From positions 1 to 34,699 of the forward strand of contig JAILJO010000047.1 of assembly GCA_024694675.1 (NCBI GenBank): a stretch of DNA of 34,699 nucleotides, read 5' to 3'. Source of the DNA: Bacteroidales bacterium. Its GTDB lineage: Bacteria > Bacteroidota > Bacteroidia > Bacteroidales > UBA932. A model generated the notes under the pieces. It did not search any database. It saw only the letters and a list, made by a program, of their open reading frames with translations, and had not been told where the DNA came from. Position numbers and translations under genes: made by a program. Positions 1,401-34,185 of the stretch are shown here, one piece after another (positions within the stretch are counted from its first letter, which is position 1; the number at the start of each line of letters is the position of its first letter).

Positions 1401-2363
1401 TTATGCTGCATAACGGTCAAAGTATAGTCTCGTCTCCTTTCCGATGTATTTCTCCTTGATTGGACGCAAGATGTCCACGTGGCCCTCGCACCACTGCTGG
1501 ACGGCCTCGGTGCAGCGCCAGATGAAACCATACCTCTCGTCAAGGATGTAATCGCTTCTGGGGTCAAGGATCTGCTTGGGATTTATACCGCCGATTTCCG
1601 CCGCCGCCGCGTAGATGTCGCCCAGGAAGGAGAAGAAGTTCTCCGTGGCGACACATTCAGGGAGTCGGCCTGTGCCGGTCTTGATGTCCCACGGCCAGGC
1701 GAGGCCGGCGCGCTGCTCAGTGGTCTCGTACTTGCGCCCGCGGCTATCGGTCCAGTCCTTGCTTTGGTACCAGCCGACGAACCTCATCACCTCGGCCACG
1801 GGATCCGCGGCATTCCTCATAAAGAATATTTTGAAAAACTCTCTCTCCTGCGCCTCGCGCGTAGAGAGATATTCTTTACTATTCCTTATAGAATCCTTAT
1901 ATTGTGGTGAACTTTTTTCACCCTTTTTTGCGACTTTCTTCACCCCTTTGGCTGAAGTTTCTTCACCCTTTTCTCCCTCAATAATGGGTGAACTTATTTC
2001 ACCCTTTTTAGGAGATACAGGCCAGACATCCTCGCCGGCCTCCAAGCGGTCAAGTAGCTCGGAGATATTGGCCTTATATTCGTACTTGGCGTGTGCGGAT
2101 TCACCTTTGCTGATAACCTTCTTTTGTTCCCTGGAGATGTAACCGGATGCCACGAGAGTGTTCACGATTGTGATGGCGTGGCGCTCGCTGATGTGACCCA
2201 CCTTCGCCAGCTCATCCATAGGGGAGCGGTAAGTATGCTTGCCGTCCTTGGAGTAGTTGTAGATGGTGGAGAAGATGTCACGCCACGGACCGGAGAACAG
2301 GTGCAGCTTGTCGGTGAGCCATATCGGCAACACCAGGAAGTCCAGATTCTTTTTGTCCTTCAT
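1401..2363 (-). CDS. phage replication protein, N-terminal winged-helix-like (320 aa)
   Basis: N-terminal wHTH-like region (SPMDELAKVGHISERHAITIVNTLVASGYISRE), low-complexity middle, separate C-terminal domain; position in early operon; internal iterons. Confidence 0.6.
   Translation of the reverse strand: MKDKKNLDFLVLPIWLTDKLHLFSGPWRDIFSTIYNYSKDGKHTYRSPMDELAKVGHISERHAITIVNTLVASGYISREQKKVISKGESAHAKYEYKANISELLDRLEAGEDVWPVSPKKGEISSPIIEGEKGEETSAKGVKKVAKKGEKSSPQYKDSIRNSKEYLSTREAQEREFFKIFFMRNAADPVAEVMRFVGWYQSKDWTDSRGRKYETTEQRAGLAWPWDIKTGTGRLPECVATENFFSFLGDIYAAAAEIGGINPKQILDPRSDYILDERYGFIWRCTEAVQQWCEGHVDILRPIKEKYIGKETRLYFDRYAA
1906..2010. repeat. four iteron-like repeats inside the replication gene (candidate replication origin)
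   Basis: minus-strand copies AAAAAAGGGTGAAAAAAGTTCACC, CCAAAGGGGTGAAGAAAGTCGC, GAAAAGGGTGAAGAAACTTCAGC, TAAAAAGGGTGAAATAAGTTCACC; two carry GGTGAA-N5-TTCACC. Confidence 0.6.
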
Positions 2364-3254: not shown

Positions 3255-3281
3255 GTGTCGCCTCCTCAGACGAGGCGACAC
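3255..3281 (-). promoter_or_regulatory. DGR target-recognition hairpin downstream of VR2
   Basis: GTGTCGCCTC-7 nt-GAGGCGACAC perfect 10-bp stem; identical element at 9932-9958 next to VR1. Confidence 0.85.
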
Positions 3282-3298
3282 GTTTCAGGTATTAAATA

Positions 3299-3757
3299 TT
3301 ATTCTCGGACGGGCCACACCCCGAAACCGAACGCGCGGCCGCTGTAGTCCAGCGGGTTCACGGTGCCGGAACCGAAGTACAAGAGCCGGGCGCGCGTCTG
3401 CGAGTGCGGCATTCTGGACCAATAGTTACCCTCGGAGCCGTTAGCCCTCACTCGGCTTTCATCCGGATAGACAAAATAGACAAAGCCGTTAGCCGGCATG
3501 AAGATGGAGAGACCATTGGGGCCGGTGACCTTGTAGCCCTTCCTCTCGCTATCCCATTCCCACTTGCACTCTTCGAAGAGCTCGACGAAAGCGGCAGCCC
3601 TGGGGAGATAATCCCCGAAGACCTCCTTTGCCTCATCGAAGGTGTAAAAGCCGGGCGCTGCGTTCTCGGCCCATGCCCTTCCTGAGGGCAGGCCGAGATC
3701 CACGTACTCGAAATCTCCAGGCTTGAAGGTCTTTTTTGTAAGTTTTTCGTTTTTCAT
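3299..3757 (-). CDS. DGR target protein 2: stand-alone C-type-lectin/FGE-like variable protein (152 aa)
   Basis: YVDLGLPSGRAWAENAAP...; C-terminus FGSGTVNPLDYSGRAFGFGVWPVRE aligns with TR translation. Confidence 0.9.
   Translation of the reverse strand: MKNEKLTKKTFKPGDFEYVDLGLPSGRAWAENAAPGFYTFDEAKEVFGDYLPRAAAFVELFEECKWEWDSERKGYKVTGPNGLSIFMPANGFVYFVYPDESRVRANGSEGNYWSRMPHSQTRARLLYFGSGTVNPLDYSGRAFGFGVWPVRE
3304..3410 (-). repeat. DGR variable repeat VR2
   Basis: 107-bp match to TR 8977-9083 with 16 mismatches, all at TR adenines (coding strand). Confidence 0.95.
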
Positions 3758-4107: not shown

Positions 4108-4317
4108 TTAAATTGTGCGACGGTACTTTGATGCCCAGAGGCGGAGGAGATCCACGCCCTGGAAGGCATAGTCTCCGTTAGCGAAGCGGTGTGCCCTGAC
4201 CTTGTTGGTCCGGGCATAGCCAATGAGAGTATTGCGGTGGCATCCAAGCCTTTTGGCGGCTTGTCCTGAGGTGTACATCACTGATGCACCAACGATGGGC
4301 TTTTCCGGGGAGATCAT
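4108..4317 (-). CDS. HTH DNA-binding protein, excisionase/MerR-like (69 aa)
   Basis: YTSGQAAKRLGCHRNTLIGYARTNKVRAHRFANGDYAF; helix-turn-helix of excisionase type. Confidence 0.75.
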   Translation of the reverse strand: MISPEKPIVGASVMYTSGQAAKRLGCHRNTLIGYARTNKVRAHRFANGDYAFQGVDLLRLWASKYRRTI

Positions 4318-4697: not shown

Positions 4698-4727
4698 CAA
4701 ATATAAAGAATTTTCTTTGAAAACAAG
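4698..4727 (-). promoter_or_regulatory. divergent early promoter
   Basis: minus strand CTTG-N18-TATATTTG; overlaps AAAGAA-TT-TTCTTT inverted repeat (possible operator). Confidence 0.5.
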
Positions 4728-4763: not shown

Positions 4764-5153
4764 ATGGACACAATGGTAACCTTGACTGACCGTATCAGTC
4801 TATTAAAGATGCGCGCGGGAGTAACCACATTAAAGGGCCTTGCAGATGCCGTAGGGCTTAAAAACCCTCAGGTTTTTTCGGACATCCTCAGCGGTAAGAC
4901 GTCGGGATTCTCCGGCAAAGTAGCGGGAAAGATTTTTCTTGCTTTCCCAGAGATAAGGAGAGAATGGCTGCTGGAGGGCGAAGGCCCAATGACCGCTGAT
5001 GAGAGCCCTGAAAGAAATTTATCGGGAGATTTCTTGAAGATCTTCCTCAACATGAGCGAGACGCTGAACCGGCTCTCCAGAGAGAATGAGGAGCTGAAGA
5101 AGAAAGTTGCAGAGAGCGAGTCTGCCCCCAAAAAGGGAGTGGTAGGATTATAA
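4764..5153 (+). CDS. phage repressor-like HTH protein (129 aa)
   Basis: N-terminal HTH (RISLLKMRAGVTTLKGLADAVGLKNPQVFSDILSGKTSGFSGKVAGKIFLAFPEIRREWLLEGEGPM); divergent from early genes. Confidence 0.8.
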   Translation: MDTMVTLTDRISLLKMRAGVTTLKGLADAVGLKNPQVFSDILSGKTSGFSGKVAGKIFLAFPEIRREWLLEGEGPMTADESPERNLSGDFLKIFLNMSETLNRLSRENEELKKKVAESESAPKKGVVGL

Positions 5154-5171: not shown

Positions 5172-5711
5172 ATGGGAATACTGATTGCTATTATTGTTGC
5201 CGGCGTACTGATTGGCCTCTTTGCCGGCGCTGTTGTGAAACCAACGAAGAGAGACAGCGTGGATGTTGCCAGGGCCACCAAGGTGAAATATCCGCCGCGT
5301 TCGGTCCACACCGGCATCCTGGATGACGAGGTTATGGAGATCTATATCTCCGGTCTCTCGCACCATTGTTTCAAGAGTGACGTCGGCCCCTTCTCCGGTG
5401 TTGTCTTCAATGAGAAGGACAATCCTGCAGACAAGGAGGCGATGGCAATAGGATGCCACCGCCGCAAGAAGATTCTGGGATATGTTCCCGCTCAGGTCCT
5501 TGATGAATATAGGAAATGGTGCAAGATGGAGAAGAGAGCCTGTGCCGGTTACATCTATTGGGACGGCCAGTACCTCCGTGGCCGTTGCCGGATCTATCCC
5601 AGCGACAAAGAGGCGGATATGGACAAGTTCAGCGAGGATGCCACCAAATATACAACCATCGTGGCAGAACATTTTGGCTGGGAACTGAACGAAGACTGCT
5701 CTTTGAAATAG
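5172..5711 (+). CDS. TM-anchored HIRAN-like domain protein (179 aa)
   Basis: N-terminal TM MGILIAIIVAGVLIGLFAGAVV; HIRAN-like FNEKDNPADKEAMAIGCHRRKKILGYVPAQVLDEY. Confidence 0.6.
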   Translation: MGILIAIIVAGVLIGLFAGAVVKPTKRDSVDVARATKVKYPPRSVHTGILDDEVMEIYISGLSHHCFKSDVGPFSGVVFNEKDNPADKEAMAIGCHRRKKILGYVPAQVLDEYRKWCKMEKRACAGYIYWDGQYLRGRCRIYPSDKEADMDKFSEDATKYTTIVAEHFGWELNEDCSLK

Positions 5712-5741: not shown

Positions 5742-6016
5742 CTGCATATTTTCTGCATATCCCAATGCCGTCATTTTGTAAGGTTTTGACTATCTTTGCA
5801 TTATCTGGAGCGAATTACACGCCTGGAAAGCGTGTATACGCCAAAAGCGTATCCCGAGTTCGAATCTCGGTCTCTCCGCTACATAAGTGCTTGATATTCA
5901 GCATTACCGCACATTGTGCAGGCATTGGAATGAACATTAAAAAAAACCAATGGTCTGCACATTTTTGCACATTTTTGCACATTTTTTGGCAAAAAGTACT
6001 GCATATTTTCTGCATG
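5742..6016. other. putative attP with integrase arm-type sites
   Basis: 17-bp CTGCATATTTTCTGCAT at 5742-5758 and 5999-6015; three GCACATTTTT with 10-bp period at 5957-5986; tRNA-Ser 3' core between. Confidence 0.7.
5818..5878 (+). other. partial tRNA-Ser(GGA): anticodon arm through acceptor 3' strand (attachment core)
   Basis: CACGC-CTGGAAA-GCGTG, variable arm ATACGC-CAAAA-GCGTAT, T arm CCGAG-TTCGAAT-CTCGG, then TCTCTCCG; no matching GGAGAGA or D arm upstream. Confidence 0.8.
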
Positions 6017-6044: not shown

Positions 6045-7274
6045 ATGATCACCACAAGACTCTACCTGGACACCCGGCAAAGCGCCGACCAGGAAGCACC
6101 GGCCCCCTTGAAACTTTCCATCTATTGGGACAAGGCCGAATCGTATCTGTTTACCGGCATCAAGCTGCCCCCCTCTCAATGGGACAAGAAAATGCGCCTT
6201 GCAAAGGACAAGGCCGTTCAGGTCTCAATATCTCGATTCAAAGTCAAGGTCGATACCCTCCTGGACGAGTGGCAGGAGGCCGGAAAGTTGGACGGCCTCA
6301 ACGCCTCAGAGATCCGGAGGAGGGTAGGGATGGAGTTGTCGCCGGATAAGGTCCGGAAGCAGCGCTTCCTTGCTTGGCTGCAGCAGTTCGGGTCCACCAG
6401 AAAGAAGCCGCGGACGAGGGAGATCTATCAGGCCACCGTAGACCGCATCAAGGCATTTGACCCTGGCGCCGAATTCCTGACCTTTGAGGATATCACCTTT
6501 GCCTGGCTGGACCGCTTTGACACCTTCCTTGCCCAGACAGCGCCCAAGAAGAATTCCCGCAACATCCACTTCCGCAACATCAAGGCCGCCTTTAAGAATG
6601 CGATGAAGAATGGCGTGACTACCTCATATCCTTTCTTCCAGTTCGAGATCCACCCGGAGCCCACGGACAAGAGAGACCTCACCGTTAACCAGATCCGGAA
6701 GCTGTTCAATGCCGAGGTGGAGCCCTGGCAGCAGAAATACGTGGACTTCTTCAAGATTTCCTTCATGCTCATCGCCATCAATACGGAGGATCTGATTCAC
6801 GCCACCGAAATCAATGACGGCCGCCTGGAGTATATTCGTGCTAAGACAGGCAAACCCTACAGTATCAAGGTTGAGCCGGAGTGTATGGAACTGATAGAGA
6901 AGTACCGTGGTGAGAAGTATCTCCTCAACATCCTGGACACATATTCCTGCACCCACAACTGGACCTCCCGGGTTGATAAGGCCCTCCACGAGATTTGCGA
7001 AAAGATTGACCTTCCCAAGAGGACTACGATGTATTGGGCCCGCCATAGTTGGAACACGATAGCCCAAAACGAGCTCGACATTCCTCAAGAGATCGCAGCT
7101 CGCGCACTCGGTCACGGAAAGAAGACCGTTAACGACATATACCTCAACTTCGACATCACAAAGATTGACCGCGCCAACCGTCAGGTGCTGGATTACATTC
7201 TCTATGACAAGAAGGCGGAGAATGTGTATGACCTCATCAAGCAGCTGAATGAGAAGATTGCCAAGCTGGCATGA
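6045..7274 (+). CDS. int: tyrosine recombinase / phage integrase (409 aa)
   Basis: Bacteroidetes-type N-terminal arm-binding and SAM-like domains; C-terminal WARHSWNTIAQNELDIPQEIAARALGHGKKTVNDIYLNF. Confidence 0.95.
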   Translation: MITTRLYLDTRQSADQEAPAPLKLSIYWDKAESYLFTGIKLPPSQWDKKMRLAKDKAVQVSISRFKVKVDTLLDEWQEAGKLDGLNASEIRRRVGMELSPDKVRKQRFLAWLQQFGSTRKKPRTREIYQATVDRIKAFDPGAEFLTFEDITFAWLDRFDTFLAQTAPKKNSRNIHFRNIKAAFKNAMKNGVTTSYPFFQFEIHPEPTDKRDLTVNQIRKLFNAEVEPWQQKYVDFFKISFMLIAINTEDLIHATEINDGRLEYIRAKTGKPYSIKVEPECMELIEKYRGEKYLLNILDTYSCTHNWTSRVDKALHEICEKIDLPKRTTMYWARHSWNTIAQNELDIPQEIAARALGHGKKTVNDIYLNFDITKIDRANRQVLDYILYDKKAENVYDLIKQLNEKIAKLA

Positions 7275-7771: not shown

Positions 7772-8944
7772 TTATTGGGGTTTAATGATTGCCTTTGTTA
7801 AGTCCGCCCTAAACTGAAAGAGGCGCCTGATATGCCCAGCCTCCATGATGGTGGGCAACGTGGCCCGGTACTCATCGAAATGCGACAGGTATCCAAGCCT
7901 TGAATTGAGTATCGAGAGAGCCCTGTCGATATCAACCGCCTTTCCCGCCGCAATGGCGGCGTCGAGCTCCCTGATGTAGATGCGAAACCTCTCCATGGAA
8001 TCATTCTTCGCATGACGGCGGTATGGTTTAATAACAGCACCAAGGAAGAAAGCCGGTTCTCTGGTACTGGTTATAGTAGTCTTGTTGGGATGGAGTCGTA
8101 GACTGAGTTCTCGGTCCAGGAATTCCCCGGCTCTTTCACGGCATTCCTCCAGATACCGGTAAGACCGATGCATGGCCTTACTGTCATCCACGTATCGGAC
8201 ATAATTCTTTATATGCAGAGACCTCTTCATAAACTGGTCGAAGGGGTTGAGGTAGATATTGCTGAAGAGTTGGTTTATCACATCTCCTATGGGAATACCT
8301 ACGCCCTGGGGCTGGAACCGTAGCGACTTCTCCGGGAGAACCAGCTGGATTCTCCCCGGATCTCCGTAGTAAACACATCCTTCCAAGGGGTCTCGTGAAA
8401 GGAAGGTGAAGATGAGATAGTCCGCGAATTCATAGTCTATCTCGTCAGGGAAGAGCTGGCGGTGTTTCCCAAGAGTCTCCCATGTGATATCGTACAGTTT
8501 CCCCCTGACGATAGACATGAAGTAGCCGGTGATATCAAGGTTGAGGATGTAGGCCTCATGGCGCCAGTTATCGGTCACGCTCCGAAGATGATGCTCGAAG
8601 CGCTCTATCCCGACAAGCGTCCCCTTACCGACCCTGCAGGAAAAGCTGTCATCTATGAAGTAGCGCTCGAAGATGGGCGCTATCATCATGAAGAGGACAT
8701 GGCTCACCACCCTGTCGCGGAATTGTGGGGCGAAGACTTCTCTTACGGTGGGGTTCAAGTTAACAAACCACTCCAGCGGTTGAGGCTTCCTCCGGCCTTC
8801 GTATAGTTCAGTGGAGAGCTCTTTCAGATTCTCCTCAAGGTGCATCTCAAACTCGAGCTGGGCAAGGGTCCCCCTCTCCTGCTTTCTGGCCTTGAAGTAA
8901 GCAAGGGTCGACAGCTCGTGTATTTGCCTGAAGGTGTATCTCAT
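7772..8944 (-). CDS. DGR reverse transcriptase (about 390 aa from MRYTFRQIHEL)
   Basis: RNYVRYVDD-type catalytic box (NYVRYVDDSKAM), GIPIGDVINQLFSN motif typical of DGR RTs, YILNLDITGYF; TR directly upstream. Confidence 0.95.
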   Translation of the reverse strand: MRYTFRQIHELSTLAYFKARKQERGTLAQLEFEMHLEENLKELSTELYEGRRKPQPLEWFVNLNPTVREVFAPQFRDRVVSHVLFMMIAPIFERYFIDDSFSCRVGKGTLVGIERFEHHLRSVTDNWRHEAYILNLDITGYFMSIVRGKLYDITWETLGKHRQLFPDEIDYEFADYLIFTFLSRDPLEGCVYYGDPGRIQLVLPEKSLRFQPQGVGIPIGDVINQLFSNIYLNPFDQFMKRSLHIKNYVRYVDDSKAMHRSYRYLEECRERAGEFLDRELSLRLHPNKTTITSTREPAFFLGAVIKPYRRHAKNDSMERFRIYIRELDAAIAAGKAVDIDRALSILNSRLGYLSHFDEYRATLPTIMEAGHIRRLFQFRADLTKAIIKPQ

Positions 8945-8976
8945 CTGTAAAAAAGAATCCAGGTGCCTTTCCGATG

Positions 8977-9158
8977 CTCGGACGGGCCACACCCCGAAAC
9001 CGTTCGCGCGGTTGTTGTTGTTCAGCGGGTTCACGTTGCCGGAATTGAAGTTCAAGTTCCGGGCGTTCGTCTGCGAGTTCGGCGCAAACGCCCACCAGTT
9101 GCCGTTGCTCCCGACATTGTTCAAGCCACCGGAGGTGCGATTCCGGTTGCCGGAGGCC
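8977..9158 (-). repeat. DGR template repeat TR
   Basis: 182-bp near-repeat of 9981-10162; coding-strand Asn-rich PLNNNNRANGFGVWPVR (AAC codons); mismatches only at adenines. Confidence 0.95.
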
Positions 9159-9359
9159 TGCCTGTTGAGCGGTCCGTTTGCTGAGTGCGAGGCCGGGAGC
9201 GCATAGCTGACGGCCATACAAACTTCCAGGGCCAGAAAAAGACACAGCCCCTTCTGGAATATCCCACGGAGCCAGATGCGCCATTGTGGGGTAGACCGCT
9301 GAATTGGAAAGGTCTGCACGGACGGTTGCGAATGACCGCAGGACCGCTCCGTTCTCTGC

Positions 9360-9764
9360 CTATTTAGCACCTGGATTGTCATCTTTATTGTTATGTATTT
9401 CGGACGATTTCCAAAGGTCCAGCTGGCGCATGACGTCAGCTTCAAGGTCACAAACAGCATGAAAGCCGGATGGTTTCATTCCGCCGGCATCGCTGACTAC
9501 TCTCGCAACGACGCAAACCCTCCGCATTATCCGGCGAGCCTCGTCAATAAACGCTCTTCTTTCCCGGCTGCCGGCAATCTCCTGATCGGCAAAGGCAATG
9601 TTCACCATTACCTCCATTATAAGCCCTATGGCATCCGCAACCATTCCGTATTTAATGGCGCGGGGCGCCTTGGCGGTGCTCGCCTGGTACTGCAGTAGGA
9701 GAAGCCTGGCGCGGTGGTAAACCGGAGGCATTTTCTGCATCCATGATTTACTTCTCCGCGCCAT
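9360..9764 (-). CDS. avd: Avd-like DGR accessory variability determinant (134 aa)
   Basis: small, basic, predicted all-helical ORF between target gene and TR/RT; size and position fit Avd; family call by eye. Confidence 0.65.
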   Translation of the reverse strand: MARRSKSWMQKMPPVYHRARLLLLQYQASTAKAPRAIKYGMVADAIGLIMEVMVNIAFADQEIAGSRERRAFIDEARRIMRRVCVVARVVSDAGGMKPSGFHAVCDLEADVMRQLDLWKSSEIHNNKDDNPGAK

Positions 9765-9931: not shown

Positions 9932-9958
9932 GTGTCGCCTCCTCAGACGAGGCGACAC
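9932..9958 (-). promoter_or_regulatory. DGR target-recognition hairpin downstream of VR1
   Basis: GTGTCGCCTC-CTCAGAC-GAGGCGACAC perfect 10-bp stem; identical to 3255-3281. Confidence 0.85.
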
Positions 9959-9975: not shown

Positions 9976-12636
9976 TTATTCTCGGACGGGCCACACCCCG
10001 AAACCGAGCGCGCGGTAGTTGTCGTTCAGCGGGTGCACGTAGCCGGAACCGAAGAGCAAGCCCCGGGCGCTCGTCTGCGAGCTCGGCGCAAACGCCCACC
10101 AGTAGCCGCCGCTCCCGACACTGTACAAGCCACCGGAGGTGCGATTCCGGTAGCCGGAGGCCGGGAAGAAGATGCCCTCGGTGTCGCCGGAGTTCTTCTT
10201 GAACTTCCAACCTGCGTCGAAGCTGCCAATGACATTGAACTGCTCCGCCGTGGAGGTGTTGGAGCCCGTTGAGGTGAAGCCGGTGGCGAAGCGGCCAGCG
10301 GGGACGGACCATCCGTTCGGTGTAGGATCGTAGATGGTCTTGATGTGCGTGGCCTGGTCGTCCGCGAGAGAGCTGGAAGTTGTCTCAGCGGCGTTCCAGA
10401 AGTTATTGAACCAGGCAAGGTTATTCCAGTTGTAGTTCGTGGCGTCATACTCAAGGAAGAACTTGTCCGGCATCTTGATGGCGTTTGCCACCGAGCGGAC
10501 AGTCCCGCCAGCATCAGAGTCATCGGCTACACCGTAAGTCCCGATAGAGACGGAGTTGCCGGAAATGTCGTAGAGTGTCATGGCGCTCGTAGAGTTATAC
10601 GCCGCTGCGTATCCCAGCAGATCCTTACGACCCCACTGGAAGAAAGGTACCACATAACGCGTGTGATCTACGTTCCAGATGGCGCCGAAAGGTACGCCCA
10701 TGAGATTGTACTTCACGCCAGTGTAGTTAGTGATGACGACCGGCTCGATATCGTCAACGGTCATCCATATTGCCCAGCTCCACATGATGTCACCATTCTC
10801 ATCCTTGACGCAGAGGACGGCGGTGCCGTTCGTTGCAGGGACGGAAGCGACGGTGAAGGTGAGATATTTGCAGTCGACGCCCTCGCTGATTCCAACGCTG
10901 GAGATCATACCTTGGGCGGTCTGCCACAGAAGGGCTGCAGAACCGGCTGCGCATCCGGCGTTCTTCTCGATATACGGAGACTCGATTGCGTTCCCGAGAT
11001 GGTTGACGAAGTCCGCCGTATAGGTACTTCCCTGGCGCGTGTACGCCTTGGCATTCACCTCGCCCTTGTCGATACCGTTACCGTAGACCAGGGGAATACG
11101 ATAGACGCCGGCATTGCGGACGATATAGGAGTTCGCCGTGGACCTGAGAAGGAGCGGCTTGCCGGTCTTGGAATCAATGAAGGACAGATCCTGACCGAAG
11201 GCGTTGGATTCGAGGGCACGGATGTGCTCCGTGTTATCGGCAATGGCCTCCTCAAGCGGTTCCATCTTCTTGTCGATACCGCCGTTGACCAGGGCTGCGA
11301 CCGTGTCGGGGTAACCCTGCGCATAGCGCATGGTGACATCAGCGCTGCCAATAACGCCGTCGAGGTAGACGAGACCCCAGTCTTCGATAGCCATCTGGGT
11401 ATCCAGGGTTACGAGACCGGTGACGACGGTCGCCAGCTCATAATAGAGATACTCGCTGGTTGCAGTGGCACTCTCGTCGGTATAGGAGACTGTCGTACCC
11501 TCAACCGCGAGGGAGAGGTTACCGCATTTGACAACGCTACCGGGCTTCATGCCGGAGATGGTAGCCTGGTGGGTGTAGGTCTGCGTCTCGCCTTCCTCAA
11601 CCTCATCGGGAGTGGTCGTCCATGTGGGAGCAACCCTGTCGCAAGCGCGGGTCCACATTACCTGGGTTGAAGAGTAGCGCTCGAGGAAGTCCACGGAATT
11701 GCCTACCACAAGCAGCTTGCCGAAGGCGTGGACCGTGTTAATGATGCTGGAGAGGGAGACGCTTGAACCAGCGTCACCGGCGGCGTCAGGGGCAATATAC
11801 TCGTCGTAACGACGGCTCCAGCCGATATGGGCGCAGGTGGTGCCATAGGTGATGCCGCTCACGATGAGATAGCCGATGCCGGTGGGGTTATAGAACCGGT
11901 ATCCGTTGGAGTTGGTGTAAGGGCACTCAACGCCATCGCTCACCGATTCGGGTACTCCGGAGGACAGGGCCTTGAACCTCACGGTGGGGGTAAGGTTTTC
12001 ACCGGCAGAGTTGGTGAAGAGGATGCCATTGGGCTTCTCTGCAGAACCGAAGGCTCCGAAAGGAAGGGCGGGTACCAGGAAATAGTAACCGTCACCCACG
12101 GAGGCAGCGTTACGTAGAAGGTTAAAGCCCGATGCCCTCAGGGCGCTCGCATAGAACGTTTCCTTGGGGACGAGGCCGATGAGGATGGCTCCGGCGGAGC
12201 TGTCGATGGAGTTATCTCCAGCGGTAGTCTGGACCTGCTCGCTGAAGGTATCCTCAACAGAGAGATTCCCTCGGTCATTCCAGGATGTGAGATTGTCAGC
12301 CAGAGCGGCGGTGACCCCTCCGTTCTCGATAGCGGCCTTCAGTTCTCCGATGGCTTCCTCGAGGCTGTATTCCTCAACCTCGGCAGAATTCCAGTCTCCG
12401 GCAGCATGATCGGCGATAAACTTCCAGAGCTTGCGGTCGTAGAAGACCTTGTCCCCGACGCTGTAGGCCGAGACGGTAGTGAATGCAGGGTAGCCGAGTG
12501 CGTTGCGCTCTACAAGCACCTGCAGGGAGGCGGACAAACCCCGGTTGCGGGCCTCGTCAAGCACCGCGGCAGAGCAGGTATTCGGGGCGATCTTATTGCC
12601 CTGATAGTCCTTCAAGTTTCCTTGTCTTGTACTCAT
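9976..12636 (-). CDS. DGR target protein 1: receptor-binding/tail fibre-like protein with C-terminal variable C-type lectin domain (886 aa)
   Basis: sits among tail genes; C-terminus PASGYRNRTSGGLYSVGSGGYWWAFAPSSQTSARGLLFGSGYVHPLNDNYRALGFGVWPVRE aligns with TR translation. Confidence 0.9.
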   Translation of the reverse strand: MSTRQGNLKDYQGNKIAPNTCSAAVLDEARNRGLSASLQVLVERNALGYPAFTTVSAYSVGDKVFYDRKLWKFIADHAAGDWNSAEVEEYSLEEAIGELKAAIENGGVTAALADNLTSWNDRGNLSVEDTFSEQVQTTAGDNSIDSSAGAILIGLVPKETFYASALRASGFNLLRNAASVGDGYYFLVPALPFGAFGSAEKPNGILFTNSAGENLTPTVRFKALSSGVPESVSDGVECPYTNSNGYRFYNPTGIGYLIVSGITYGTTCAHIGWSRRYDEYIAPDAAGDAGSSVSLSSIINTVHAFGKLLVVGNSVDFLERYSSTQVMWTRACDRVAPTWTTTPDEVEEGETQTYTHQATISGMKPGSVVKCGNLSLAVEGTTVSYTDESATATSEYLYYELATVVTGLVTLDTQMAIEDWGLVYLDGVIGSADVTMRYAQGYPDTVAALVNGGIDKKMEPLEEAIADNTEHIRALESNAFGQDLSFIDSKTGKPLLLRSTANSYIVRNAGVYRIPLVYGNGIDKGEVNAKAYTRQGSTYTADFVNHLGNAIESPYIEKNAGCAAGSAALLWQTAQGMISSVGISEGVDCKYLTFTVASVPATNGTAVLCVKDENGDIMWSWAIWMTVDDIEPVVITNYTGVKYNLMGVPFGAIWNVDHTRYVVPFFQWGRKDLLGYAAAYNSTSAMTLYDISGNSVSIGTYGVADDSDAGGTVRSVANAIKMPDKFFLEYDATNYNWNNLAWFNNFWNAAETTSSSLADDQATHIKTIYDPTPNGWSVPAGRFATGFTSTGSNTSTAEQFNVIGSFDAGWKFKKNSGDTEGIFFPASGYRNRTSGGLYSVGSGGYWWAFAPSSQTSARGLLFGSGYVHPLNDNYRALGFGVWPVRE
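9981..10162 (-). repeat. DGR variable repeat VR1
   Basis: 182-bp ungapped match to TR with 20 mismatches, all at TR adenines. Confidence 0.97.
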
Positions 12637-28932: not shown

Positions 28933-29553
28933 TCACATATTTCCCCATTTTTCTATGCGAAATGCCGTCCTGCCGATAGAGTCCCGGCAAATACACACAG
29001 CCTTCTGTGTAAGCCATCGTTTAGGGTTAGTTACAGAGCCTTTCTCCAGGCTGCTTAATAGCGCAAACTCCGCCTCAGCAGAACAAGCGTCAGCAAATGA
29101 TTCTGGAACGTGCGCCCTGCTCTGGGTTATTCTTACAAGAGCTGGGTGGAAATTCTCCATCAGAACGATAATATCCTCGCGATTCCCCTTATAGAATTGA
29201 AGGGAAGCATTGAGCCACCGGATTTCATCTTCTATTTTGCTTACCGATGTGGCGTGGGATTTCTTCGATTCCCTGATCTTTGCGCTTCGCAAGTTTAATT
29301 CAGTGCGTGTTATAAACTCACCGTCTTTCGTCACAACATACTTACGTGAATCAAATGTTGTCGGATCTATCTGCTTATCTACGCAAAAGCGAAACTTCGC
29401 CCTGGATACAGTGGTACCTTTATCCCCCCTGAGCATAGAGATTGCCTTTCCTTGGTGAATCGGGCGCCAGCCGCCCCGCCTATCCTTTACGACAAGCTCA
29501 TCATGTTCGTTGATTCCGTAGGTATCGAACCCCGGCATTGTTCTTACACTCAT
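28933..29553 (-). CDS. hypothetical protein with NUMOD4-like N-terminus (206 aa)
   Basis: MPGFDTYGINEHDELVVKDRRGGWRPIHQGK resembles NUMOD4; no HNH core seen. Confidence 0.45.
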   Translation of the reverse strand: MSVRTMPGFDTYGINEHDELVVKDRRGGWRPIHQGKAISMLRGDKGTTVSRAKFRFCVDKQIDPTTFDSRKYVVTKDGEFITRTELNLRSAKIRESKKSHATSVSKIEDEIRWLNASLQFYKGNREDIIVLMENFHPALVRITQSRAHVPESFADACSAEAEFALLSSLEKGSVTNPKRWLTQKAVCICRDSIGRTAFRIEKWGNM

Positions 29554-30476
29554 AGGAAAATCTTTTTTGCGGCGGCTTTCTTGGCGTCGTCGTCGGAGTG
29601 GGCGTAGATGTTCAGGGTGGTTTGCACGTCGCTGTGGCCAAGGAGCTCTGCGGTGGTGCGGATGTCAACCTTGGCTTGTAAGAGACGTGAGGCATAAGTG
29701 TGGCGCAGGCTATGGAATGACTTGTATGGGATACCTAACTTTTCACAGCGCGTCTTGAATTTACAGCGCATCGTCCGGGGCTCAACAAAGGGCGTGTCGT
29801 CCGTTGAACAAGCAGCGCTGATATACTCCTCGTCCGAAATCTTGTAGAGTTTCTGGTAATTCTTGAAATACTTGCCAAGCCATGACGGAATTGGGACGAT
29901 CCTCTCAGATGCTCCACATTTCGGAGGATTCACATAGAGGCTTGTCTTTCCCTTGCCATCATAGATTCGACCAACCGTCCTGCGAACGCTGATGCACCCT
30001 TTCTCAAAGTCAAAATCTCCATACTGAAGGCCGGAGAGCTCACCAATTCTCAACCCGGTTAATGCGCCAAGAGCAATAATCTTGTCAAAGTGTGACCCGG
30101 ATTCTTTGCAATACTCCACAAGAGTCTCCAGCTCCTTGTTCGTGTACTTCTCGCGCTCTTTCTGTGGCCTGCAAGATTTTGTAGGCCAGATGATCGTAAA
30201 GGAAAGCAGCGGCCTATCTTGGTCAAGGCTCCAAAGTTTGAGCATATTCTTGAGAACAACAATATGGTCCTGGATAGTGTGAACGCTGAGACCATCTGCA
30301 ACCTTTCCATCAACATACTTTTGCAAGGTGGAATTCTTCATATCGTCCATATCTACGTCTCGGAAAACCGGCTCCAGGTGAGCGTACCAATTCATAGCAT
30401 ACGCTGCCAGGCTTGTTTCCTTTACGAAGCCGCGCTTCTTTGCCTTGTAAGTAGGCCAATACTCTCCGAATGTCAT
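29550..30476 (-). CDS. second tyrosine recombinase (308 aa)
   Basis: LTGLRIGELSGLQYGD...HSLRHTYASRLLQAKVDIRTTAELLGHSDVQTTLNIYAH: full catalytic set. Confidence 0.95.
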   Translation of the reverse strand: MTFGEYWPTYKAKKRGFVKETSLAAYAMNWYAHLEPVFRDVDMDDMKNSTLQKYVDGKVADGLSVHTIQDHIVVLKNMLKLWSLDQDRPLLSFTIIWPTKSCRPQKEREKYTNKELETLVEYCKESGSHFDKIIALGALTGLRIGELSGLQYGDFDFEKGCISVRRTVGRIYDGKGKTSLYVNPPKCGASERIVPIPSWLGKYFKNYQKLYKISDEEYISAACSTDDTPFVEPRTMRCKFKTRCEKLGIPYKSFHSLRHTYASRLLQAKVDIRTTAELLGHSDVQTTLNIYAHSDDDAKKAAAKKIFL

Positions 30477-31024
30477 AGCGTAATGATTTTTGAGAAGCCG
30501 AGGCAGTCGTCCTTCTCGCTAACAAGTTGGTAAGTGGCTTTCTCCTTCTGCTCAAGGACGTCGCCGTGATGAACTATCCCCACAATCCCACGGATAGAGA
30601 GATTGAGTAGCAGGATGGGGATAGAGCGGTCAGATAGTTCCCAGCATTCGATGGGATTCTTGGAAGGGTAGAAGTCAAATGGAACGTGTGCCTGGGCCTT
30701 TCGCCACCAGTCGGCTATGAGCATAGAGCCGTTGCCGGCAGTGGGCTCATAGGTTGCTCCGTCCTTTACGCCGGTGATCCGTGAGGCAAGCCGCCCCAGG
30801 GAATTGGGCGTGAAGTCTTGCTTCTTCTCCTTCCGTTCCGAGAATTCTCCCTCGTACAGAGATTGGAACCAGTCGTGGGAGACATCGTGGTTGTTCAGCT
30901 CCAGCAGCTTGCGGTAGATGTCGTCCCGCTCCTGGCTGTTGCTCAATACTACCGGCATTATCGCTTCCGGTAGCAGCCGCATATCGGTCACTTTGAAAAT
31001 GCGGAAAAGGTCTTCTTTTGTCAT
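30473..31024 (-). CDS. N6-adenine methyltransferase-like protein, C-terminally truncated (183 aa)
   Basis: KKQDFTPNSLGRLASRITG...YEPTAGNGSMLI (motif I); ends before any NPPY motif. Confidence 0.7.
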   Translation of the reverse strand: MTKEDLFRIFKVTDMRLLPEAIMPVVLSNSQERDDIYRKLLELNNHDVSHDWFQSLYEGEFSERKEKKQDFTPNSLGRLASRITGVKDGATYEPTAGNGSMLIADWWRKAQAHVPFDFYPSKNPIECWELSDRSIPILLLNLSIRGIVGIVHHGDVLEQKEKATYQLVSEKDDCLGFSKIITL

Positions 31025-31928: not shown

Positions 31929-32429
31929 TCAATACCGGAATGAGGTGAAGTGAATAATGGCAAGCGGCCTGTCATACACCGTGTCCTTTGCGTGACCTTT
32001 GAACCACTCCTGCCATTCCTCAAGCGTCAGGCCGTCATTCTTTGCCAGCTCCTCTTTACTACCACACTCGCCGTCCATATACCAGCCCTCGATGACCGGC
32101 ACCTGTCTGTCACCACACCAGCCGAAGTTGAGCTTCTGGATGCCCACTCCGTCCTTGCGGCCAAGGCGCATTATCTCCACCGTCTTGGAGCGATACGGCT
32201 TGCCGGTCCACTGACGCAGGCAGATTTCAGCCTCACCAGCCTCCACCTTTGCGATGCGGTCACGCCACAGGTCGTAATTCTCGCGGATGGTGTGGATCTT
32301 CGGTGTCATCCCTTCATAAATGGCGGGGTACTTTGCCGCGATTACTTTCATACTGAAGAGCGTTGAACCGCCACTTCGTGAATGCGTCGCCGGGAATACC
32401 TTTGACAGCATGATGTTGTAGGTCTTCAT
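31929..32429 (-). CDS. ASCH-like domain protein (from MKTYNIML)
   Basis: KIHTIRENYDLWRDRIAKVEAGEAEICLRQWTGKPYRSKTVEI. Confidence 0.65.
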   Translation of the reverse strand: MKTYNIMLSKVFPATHSRSGGSTLFSMKVIAAKYPAIYEGMTPKIHTIRENYDLWRDRIAKVEAGEAEICLRQWTGKPYRSKTVEIMRLGRKDGVGIQKLNFGWCGDRQVPVIEGWYMDGECGSKEELAKNDGLTLEEWQEWFKGHAKDTVYDRPLAIIHFTSFRY

Positions 32430-32430
32430 A

Positions 32431-32562
32431 TCAGTCCTCCTTGTCCTTTTTGTTCTTTCCAATGTTCACGCTCAGCAGCGGCACGCTGAATATCACGGCC
32501 AGGTAGAAAAGCCCGCCCAGCCAATGCCAGAAGTTGCCAAAGAAGAATTCAACGATTTCCAT
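32431..32562 (-). CDS. small TM protein (43 aa, MEIVEFFFGNFWHWLGGLFYLAVIFSVPLLSVNIGKNKKDKED)
   Basis: manual translation between two overlapping genes; not in track. Confidence 0.6.
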   Translation of the reverse strand: MEIVEFFFGNFWHWLGGLFYLAVIFSVPLLSVNIGKNKKDKED

Positions 32563-33002
32563 TACTGTTCCTCCACTTTCTTTCCGTACATCTCCAGCCA
32601 CTTATGCTCCTTGATGTCGTACTCTCCAATCCAGGTGCAGGTCTTGGAATGTGGCATCTCAAAGAACTTGTCAACGAAAGCGTCCCAAGCCTCCTGGGCC
32701 TCCTTGCGGTTGTTGATTTGGACTTCCGCATCGTCGTCAATGTTGTGCTCGAGGTAGAAGGAATCCGTCATCTGATCCGTAATGCTATCCAGCGAGGGCG
32801 CAAAGTCCTTGGGCACTATGGAATGGGAAATGCCAATGAAGATGACTTGCGGGTATTCGTCAGAGCAGTCATCCCAGTAGTCGCCGTCCGGATCCTTGTA
32901 GCAGGCGTCGGCGAATGCAATCAGTTCTTCAATGGTGTCAAAGTCTTCGGCACCACAACGCTGTCGGTCTGTACCAAAGCAGTACACGGGTTTTTCGTTC
33001 AT
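32562..33002 (-). CDS. acidic hypothetical protein (146 aa)
   Basis: intact acidic ORF, overlapping the next small ORF. Confidence 0.7.
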   Translation of the reverse strand: MNEKPVYCFGTDRQRCGAEDFDTIEELIAFADACYKDPDGDYWDDCSDEYPQVIFIGISHSIVPKDFAPSLDSITDQMTDSFYLEHNIDDDAEVQINNRKEAQEAWDAFVDKFFEMPHSKTCTWIGEYDIKEHKWLEMYGKKVEEQ

Positions 33003-33196: not shown

Positions 33197-33925
33197 CTAC
33201 CGGTAGTGATTCTCTGCATAGTATTGAAGGTTTTGCTCCTTGGTACACCAGCGCAGGTTATCCACACGGTTGTCATATCTATCCTCGTTGATGTGATCCA
33301 CTTCGGGAAGGTCGTAAGGGTTAGGAATGAATAGTTCTGCGATGATCCTATGCAGTCTATACTTTTTTCCTCTGTAGTTCACCTTGATGTACTTACCATC
33401 AACGGATGGTGTGATAATACTACGGAGCCAGTATGAGTACACGCGGCCAAGGTTAGAGAAGGCGTGGCCGGGGAATTGTCTGTGGTTCTTCCAGACTTCG
33501 CCGGGTAGCGTTGGGATGTCGTGGTTGAATACAATCTCTCGCATCCGTCTGCCGTCCACGTGGTGGCCGTTGCCGTCCTCCACGATGCGGACGATCTTGT
33601 GCAGCGCCTTGCTCCATACGCGGCCAAGGTTACTGACCAGATATTTTCCATACTCGCGGAACTCCTCTCCTTCCATCGGCTCAGGCATCGGCACCGGCTT
33701 GGGTGCTTTGACGTACAGCTCCGGGAAGGCCAGCTTGTGCAGAGCAATCATGCTGCGCCACGAGCGCTGGGTCCTCGACTTGGCAAGGCGCACCTGCAGT
33801 AATCCCCAGGCGTTGGCGTAAGGTGTGAGCTCCTTGCCGGTGCTCACCTTCCGCACCATCGCGCCGGGGTTGCTAACCTCGTACTCCGGCCAATCAGGTA
33901 TGATTCTCCATTCAATCATTCTCAT
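33197..33925 (-). CDS. NUMOD4 / HNH_3 endonuclease (242 aa)
   Basis: WRIIPDWPEYEVSNPGAMVRK ... LHRIIAELFIPNPYDLPEVDHINEDRYDNRVDNLRWCTKEQN. Confidence 0.92.
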   Translation of the reverse strand: MRMIEWRIIPDWPEYEVSNPGAMVRKVSTGKELTPYANAWGLLQVRLAKSRTQRSWRSMIALHKLAFPELYVKAPKPVPMPEPMEGEEFREYGKYLVSNLGRVWSKALHKIVRIVEDGNGHHVDGRRMREIVFNHDIPTLPGEVWKNHRQFPGHAFSNLGRVYSYWLRSIITPSVDGKYIKVNYRGKKYRLHRIIAELFIPNPYDLPEVDHINEDRYDNRVDNLRWCTKEQNLQYYAENHYR

Positions 33926-33955
33926 TCACATTAACATTATCATTAGGGGTTGTTT
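33819..33955. repeat. exact 137-bp direct repeat of window positions 1-137
   Basis: position-by-position identity at offset 33818; diverges at 138/33956. Confidence 0.95.
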
Positions 33956-34185
33956 TGGGGTTGTTTCTTTGCCCCCTCCGGGCGTGTACTGCCAGCAGTA
34001 GCGCTGCTTTTGCGGCTAGAGGTCCTCGTCCCGTGCTGCAGGGAGCGAAGATGCCTTATAGTTTCATCAGCAGCCTGAAGCTCTGACTTTAAGAATGAGT
34101 TTTCCTTGTTAACCTTCAGCAGTTCTGAAACAAGGAGAGTCACTAGCATGACTAGGACTACGGTTACGAAGATTAAAGCTTTCAT
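33943..34185 (-). CDS. small membrane-anchored coiled-coil protein, alternate allele of 136-354
   Basis: same layout and C-terminal KKQPQNNP. Confidence 0.7.
   Translation of the reverse strand: MKALIFVTVVLVMLVTLLVSELLKVNKENSFLKSELQAADETIRHLRSLQHGTRTSSRKSSATAGSTRPEGAKKQPQNNP

Follow-up and report, generated by a model that had tools for sequence, protein, structure and literature searches.

The role ascribed to phage DGRs is nearly always tail tropism. For instance, the Mtd DGR of Bordetella phage BPP-1 has a template repeat (TR), a variable repeat (VR), an IMH and a hairpin downstream of the VR. The DGR described here, carried by a 34,699-nt stretch of Bacteroidales DNA (the window, analysed at its whole length), has the same elements; unlike it, BPP-1 has a single target, which serves tail tropism.

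Among annotated viral DGR targets, tail proteins form the majority (PMC8144416). DGRs, CLec targets and DGRs with two targets are already known (PMC8144416, PMC10743442, PMC11792537), distal second VRs have been reported (PMC8143477, PMC12629997) and so have the short targets of Burkholderia phage Magia (PMC7883833). As in the window, Bacuni phages F1, F2 and F4 (PMC8143477; QMS42043) have a second live DGR target far from the RT. Flanked by the genes of DNA polymerase A and a cytosine methyltransferase, it was named a fimbrial-tip-like adhesion protein by its authors (PMC8143477); unlike the product of the window, it has 224 aa and, apart from the VR domain, is a member of another protein family. 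Faecalibacterium phages Lagaffe, Lelie and CP11 (PMC11792537) also have two targets per DGR. In Lagaffe, the second VR is directly upstream of exonuclease/Gam/ERF/SSB, but its target differs from that of the window in being FGE/Mtd-like and 420 aa long. Like the target described here, Magia genes 47 and 57 (PMC7883833) are small stand-alone lectin-fold targets in an early/recombination operon; in contrast to the window, the RT and all three Magia VRs are in the early operon and a tail VR was undetected. The third Magia VR, which we detected in a gene annotated hypothetical (CDS 32316-32780, L083), is absent from the announcement of this phage (PMC7883833).

Two other reports concern functions away from the tail. 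A one-sentence observation in PMC12629997 mentions that four gut prophages have a second, distal VR in the vicinity of counter-defence genes and suggests an arms-race role; its likeness to the window is one of description. The DGR antigen sensors of Thiohalocapsa (PMC10907252) also have DGR-diversified CLec domains, are predicted to be cytoplasmic and belong to conflict systems. However, they are cellular, large multi-domain STAND/ternary proteins, whereas the protein of the window is a phage single domain. Among the open-licence PMC papers that we found, we saw none describing stand-alone targets of the early module as a class, genome-identical phages differing only at the early target, acceptor hairpins that covary at the two targets or an ACP-fused target.

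The DGR of the window and its two targets

The window carries a complete DGR consisting of an RT, a TR and two VRs. The RT part (7772 to ~8938, minus strand) of the ORF 7772-9460 is of DGR type (PF00078, E 5.6e-11; phrog_1423, E 3e-78) and is encoded together with the TR (8977-9157, minus strand), through which the RT open frame reads. A 134-aa ORF located between the VR1 gene and the TR (9360-9764, minus strand) is an Avd candidate by position and size; it had no family match in Pfam/PHROG-type profile searches. The first target, encoded after the tail genes (9976-12636, minus strand), is an 886-aa tail-type protein whose C-terminal end is formed by VR1 (9981-10161, minus strand). All 20 mismatches of VR1 over 181 nt are at TR adenines.

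The second target gene (3299-3757, minus strand) encodes 152 aa. The original prediction was that its VR2 (3304-3410, minus strand) differs from the TR by 16 mismatches, all at adenines, and exactly this was obtained in a gapless alignment of 107 nt with TR positions 8977-9083. Since the TR has 27 A in these 107 nt, the hypergeometric P of A-only mismatches is 3e-12, for a VR boundary that was chosen post hoc. With 200 shuffled TRs compared to the whole window, the minimum was 34 non-A mismatches versus 0 observed. The TR A positions correspond to AAY codons in the VR2 reading frame, and the part of the gene located 5' of VR2 is unrelated to the TR and to VR1. A gut-type phage thus appears to diversify both a tail protein and an early lectin-like protein by one retroelement.

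Furthermore, VR1 and VR2 share about 45 nt located 3' of the stop codon, which include AATAATATTTAATACCTGAAAC and a 10-bp hairpin, GTGTCGCCTC-GTCTGAG-GAGGCGACAC. This hairpin, an IMH-associated acceptor element, is identical after VR2 (3255-3281, minus strand) and after VR1 (9932-9958, minus strand). The identity stops directly past it, and the TR is devoid of it. The lower bound of the region that first drew attention to the locus, position 3255, is the end of this perfect hairpin. Both VRs therefore end with an IMH followed by a hairpin, distinct from the IMH* of the TR. In related phages, the hairpin is found at both VRs, its stem being changed by paired substitutions and its loop being kept. 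For instance, it reads GGCGGCGCCC-GTCTGAG-GGGCGCCGCC after VR1 of the relative G305 and GGCAGCGCCC-GTCTGAG-GGGCGCTGCC after VR2. Those of Bacuni are GAAA- and GCAA-capped at its two VRs, and a simple hairpin test was negative for Magia and for VR2 of Lagaffe. Since this cassette is shared by both VRs and missing from the TR, VR2 has the cis-elements expected of a genuine retrohoming target.

Conservation and variation among related phages

TR/VR scanning detected the two-target layout in G237 (a goat omasum MAG), G300, G301 (uncultured Bacteroidales RUG544), G305, G306, G307 (with G310) and G313. Including the window, eight distinct phages harbor a close homologue of the VR2 gene together with TR, VR1 and VR2. 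The VR2 gene accompanies this RT and tail VR although early regions differ between phages. A conserved partner gene was sought beside VR2 in a comparison that left out G306, G307 and G313, and neighbours were common only to the related phages G237 and G301; G306 and G307 share a primase. Outside the VR, dN/dS was 0.12-0.29 where computable, with many dS near saturation, which points to purifying selection on the VR2 gene.

The layout is not universal: a single VR was found in MT835523, in VP58.5 and in contigs G302, G303, G304 and G317, several of which are fragments. Its early-module position is not universal either. In G319, whose RT frame contains one TGA, the second VR is in the packaging region, in a 265-aa protein (L160 9721-10515) with a zinc-ribbon-like N-terminus, encoded beside terminase and portal genes.

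VR2 variation is seen between G307 and G310, IMG/VR contigs that are each 46.7 kb long and belong to separate metagenome accessions. Their alignment covers 46,695 nt, and its only differences, 15 substitutions plus one gap pair, are all inside VR2; 14 of the 15 substitutions are at TR adenines, and the tail VRs are identical. Since these otherwise identical phages differ only in VR2, VR2 is live in this family. In a third relative, G308, VR2 is the strongest difference within that gene. A lack of VR2 variation across relatives had been put forward as the sign of a dead relic, and these data contradict it. The same holds for the Bacuni phages: F1 and F2, isolated on the same host strain, have 19 differing sites in ~29.7 kb, of which the distal VR accounts for 16. 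The distal VR is the same in F1 and F4, which have 18 differing sites in the tail VR. Tail and distal VRs evolve independently.

Two other observations were made on these contigs. A VR1-like copy is present at each end of the G306 contig (55-224 and 43224-43393; L150, L152), which would fit a circular genome whose tail VR existed as two alleles in the same sample. In G307, ~1-kb direct repeats that are 76-87% identical (31807-37150; L143 11807-17150) probably belong to a large repetitive protein.

The VR2 protein

The VR2 protein of the window had no match in Pfam, NCBIfam or PADLOC and a single sub-threshold match, of unknown function, in PHROGs. The curated Lcl_C/FISUMP models (PF07603, PF09603 and TIGR02145) matched neither this protein nor its four closest homologues; a more distant relative, L101, passes the Fib_succ_major model. 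In hhalign comparisons, the protein aligned over nearly its full length with cellular Bacteroidetes FISUMP/Lcl_C-type domains (prob 99.9, E 5e-32). When PDB sequences were searched with the close family, only chance matches to cytochrome c were returned. The AF2 model computed with 25 relatives reached pLDDT 91.4 and pTM 0.86; with 5 sequences only, pLDDT was 42 and the model unusable. The best PDB match of the former, the CTD of Legionella Lcl (8q4e), is weak (prob 0.93, E 0.03, TM ~0.4), and its top viral structural matches are FISUMP-domain phage proteins. The VR2 product is therefore predicted to be one minimal FISUMP/Lcl_C-type (C-type-lectin-like) domain.

A tail receptor-binding protein would be encoded in the tail cluster and carry an N-terminal tail module. 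Gene order places the VR2 gene elsewhere, and its 152-aa single-domain product has no such module; nor is a signal peptide obvious by eye. The ORF and the domain comparison thus agree with the lectin-like protein that had been described from the sequence. N-termini of homologues vary: some are short and helical, that of L101 is zinc-ribbon-like by eye and those of G313 and G315 are an acyl carrier protein (ACP) domain (PF00550, E 3e-8, above cut-off). Fusions of an ACP domain to a FISUMP-type domain are encoded at L095 2752-3417 and L097 595-1260. The ACP-fused domain of G313 bears a DGR VR, 40 kb from the RT, and this fusion argues for a cytoplasmic location.

Early-region location

As the original prediction stated, the VR2 gene is flanked by an HTH/excisionase-like gene (4108-4317; PF12728) and, downstream, by a replication-initiator-like gene (1401-2363, minus strand; weak PHROG hits). 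Its strand leads away from a gene divergent from the early operon (4764-5153, plus strand), a CI-like repressor candidate by position and strand that had no family match. A match to the Bacteroidetes-type promoter motif (TTG-N18-TATATTTG; 4698-4726, minus strand) reads into the VR2 operon. It is the sole minus-strand match in the window, for about one chance match expected per window on both strands. G237 has a match in the same divergent gap, the sole one in the 20 kb searched, and its VR2 gene, like that of the window, is in an operon divergent from the repressor.

In G307, the VR2 gene overlaps by 4 nt the ORF following a DNA primase gene, and G306 is similar. In G313, it is a few genes past SSB, behind a DnaC-like loader and a replication initiator, and in G300, where it adjoins a DnaB-like gene, the tail and DGR genes are on the other strand. 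The early/replication location of the VR2 gene is thus well supported, and we infer its early expression from gene order and one promoter match. No known anti-defence gene was identified by PADLOC beside VR2 in the window. The gene behind the repressor (5172-5711) has a similar-looking counterpart in G237 (L040 18268-18801), and its product shows weak PDC-M03B similarity.

Other DGR phages were found by RT similarity, and since this sample is small and biased, we claim no frequency for early-module targets. Such targets, from other protein families, are carried by Bacuni, BS-TP1, Lagaffe, Magia, Haboob and Dulem virus 37. The distal VR of BS-TP1 is 50 kb from the RT on the opposite strand, and the second VR of Dulem virus 37 is near a methyltransferase and Lar. 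All VRs detected in Magia (three) and Haboob (two) belong to small proteins of the early region, and none was detected in a tail gene. A hypervariable early lectin had been considered unexpected. The window does have a second stand-alone target in its early region, live in its family, but phages such as Bacuni, Magia and Lagaffe indicate that it is neither unique nor wholly unexpected. In BS-TP1, gp79 (L066 29351-30613), located shortly behind the distal DUF1566 target and 50 kb from the main RT, has an RT-like annotation (phrog_1423); a second TR was not found in this phage.

Some features of the window concern the element as a whole. Its ends (1-148 and 33819-33966) are common over 148 nt at 99%, and past them lie two diverging versions of a small-membrane-protein/HNH region; the phage genome is probably circular, with a different allele of this region at each end of the window. 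A tRNA-Ser-like 3' part (5808-5880), likely to be attP, is adjacent to a tyrosine recombinase gene (6045-7274), and ARAGORN found no complete tRNA in the window. A second integrase (29550-30476; PF00589) is encoded between the terminase and an N6-methyltransferase-like fragment (30473-31024).

Discussion

We propose that one TR feeds adenine-specific mutagenic retrohoming into both the tail protein and the 152-aa protein, of which the C-terminal 36 residues would be rewritten. Retrohoming into VR2 would be steered by its own IMH and hairpin. The 152-aa protein would be produced early alongside replication proteins, remain in the cytoplasm and serve there as a diversified binder in the manner of a phage-encoded intrabody. 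Within the infected cell, the VR2 product probably has a binding partner. Hypervariation suggests that this ligand differs from one host or competitor to another; most plausibly, it would be a host protein that varies, for instance a component of a defence system, or a protein of a competing phage. In keeping with the brief remark in PMC12629997, host defence proteins would be the leading candidates. We thus favor, with moderate confidence, an early, cytoplasmic, DGR-diversified single-domain binder for which counter-defence is the most plausible role; taken alone, the counter-defence role is speculative and put forward tentatively. Cytoplasmic location and binding are both inferred from the data above, and the cytoplasmic DGR-diversified sensors proposed in bacteria (PMC10907252) count in their favor.

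Several points run against a cytoplasmic binder: the second VR of G319 is beside terminase and portal genes, no known anti-defence gene was identified next to VR2 in the window and no second VR was found in some contigs, several of them fragments. Moreover, C-type lectins are usually extracellular binders.

Because the other target of the DGR is a tail protein, the main rival is attachment to the virion. The small lectin would be a minor virion or tail-tip component, or would be bound to the tail by its short N-terminus, and VR2 would provide a second adsorption specificity, encoded by a gene that merely happens to be located away from the tail cluster. VR2 has the same TR scaffold as the tail VR1, tail proteins prevail among annotated viral targets and the second target of G319 adjoins terminase and portal. 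However, the window protein has no tail-attachment domain, the VR2 gene is co-oriented and overlapping with replication genes, and the strand is opposite to that of virion genes in G300, BS-TP1, Magia and Haboob. Together with N-termini that vary, ACP among them, and two Bacuni phages from the same host strain that differ in their distal VR, this makes virion attachment rather unlikely.

A lectin capturing receptors or glycans, at the envelope or after lysis, could instead block superinfection or free progeny from debris. Such a role would suit the lectin-like fold and variants made from the same TR as the tail receptor-binding VR, but no signal peptide is obvious, early placement brings no benefit after lysis, and tail VR and VR2 vary independently; we consider it improbable. 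Even less probable is a diversification of the phage's own regulation, for example by binding its replication or lysogeny proteins: repressor and replication genes are adjacent, but these neighbours differ between phages and, since self-ligands do not vary, hypervariation would be costly. Finally, a dead or hitchhiking VR copy without function, which the short single-domain gene and the one or two non-A mismatches of VR2 in G305 might have suggested, is excluded for practical purposes by the open frame under purifying selection, the conserved hairpin, the live diversification of G307/G310 and Bacuni and the maintenance of the gene with its DGR in phages with otherwise different early regions.

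If VR2 encodes an early cytoplasmic binder, the same may hold more widely, a possibility that we raise with reserve. DGRs of Bacteroidales, Clostridia, Burkholderia and Pseudomonas phages may be an adaptive intracellular binder system, whose small early cytoplasmic C-type-lectin domains, hypermutated and some of them fused to ACP or zinc-ribbon-like modules, would capture changing proteins of host defence or of rival phages. Cultured phages (Bacuni F1/F2/F4, Magia and Lagaffe) share the layout, hence the ligand could be tested directly with natural alleles. The recurrence of a live early-module target suggests that DGRs also diversify something used after entry. If true, this would constitute a phage intrabody arm of DGR biology, apart from tail tropism.
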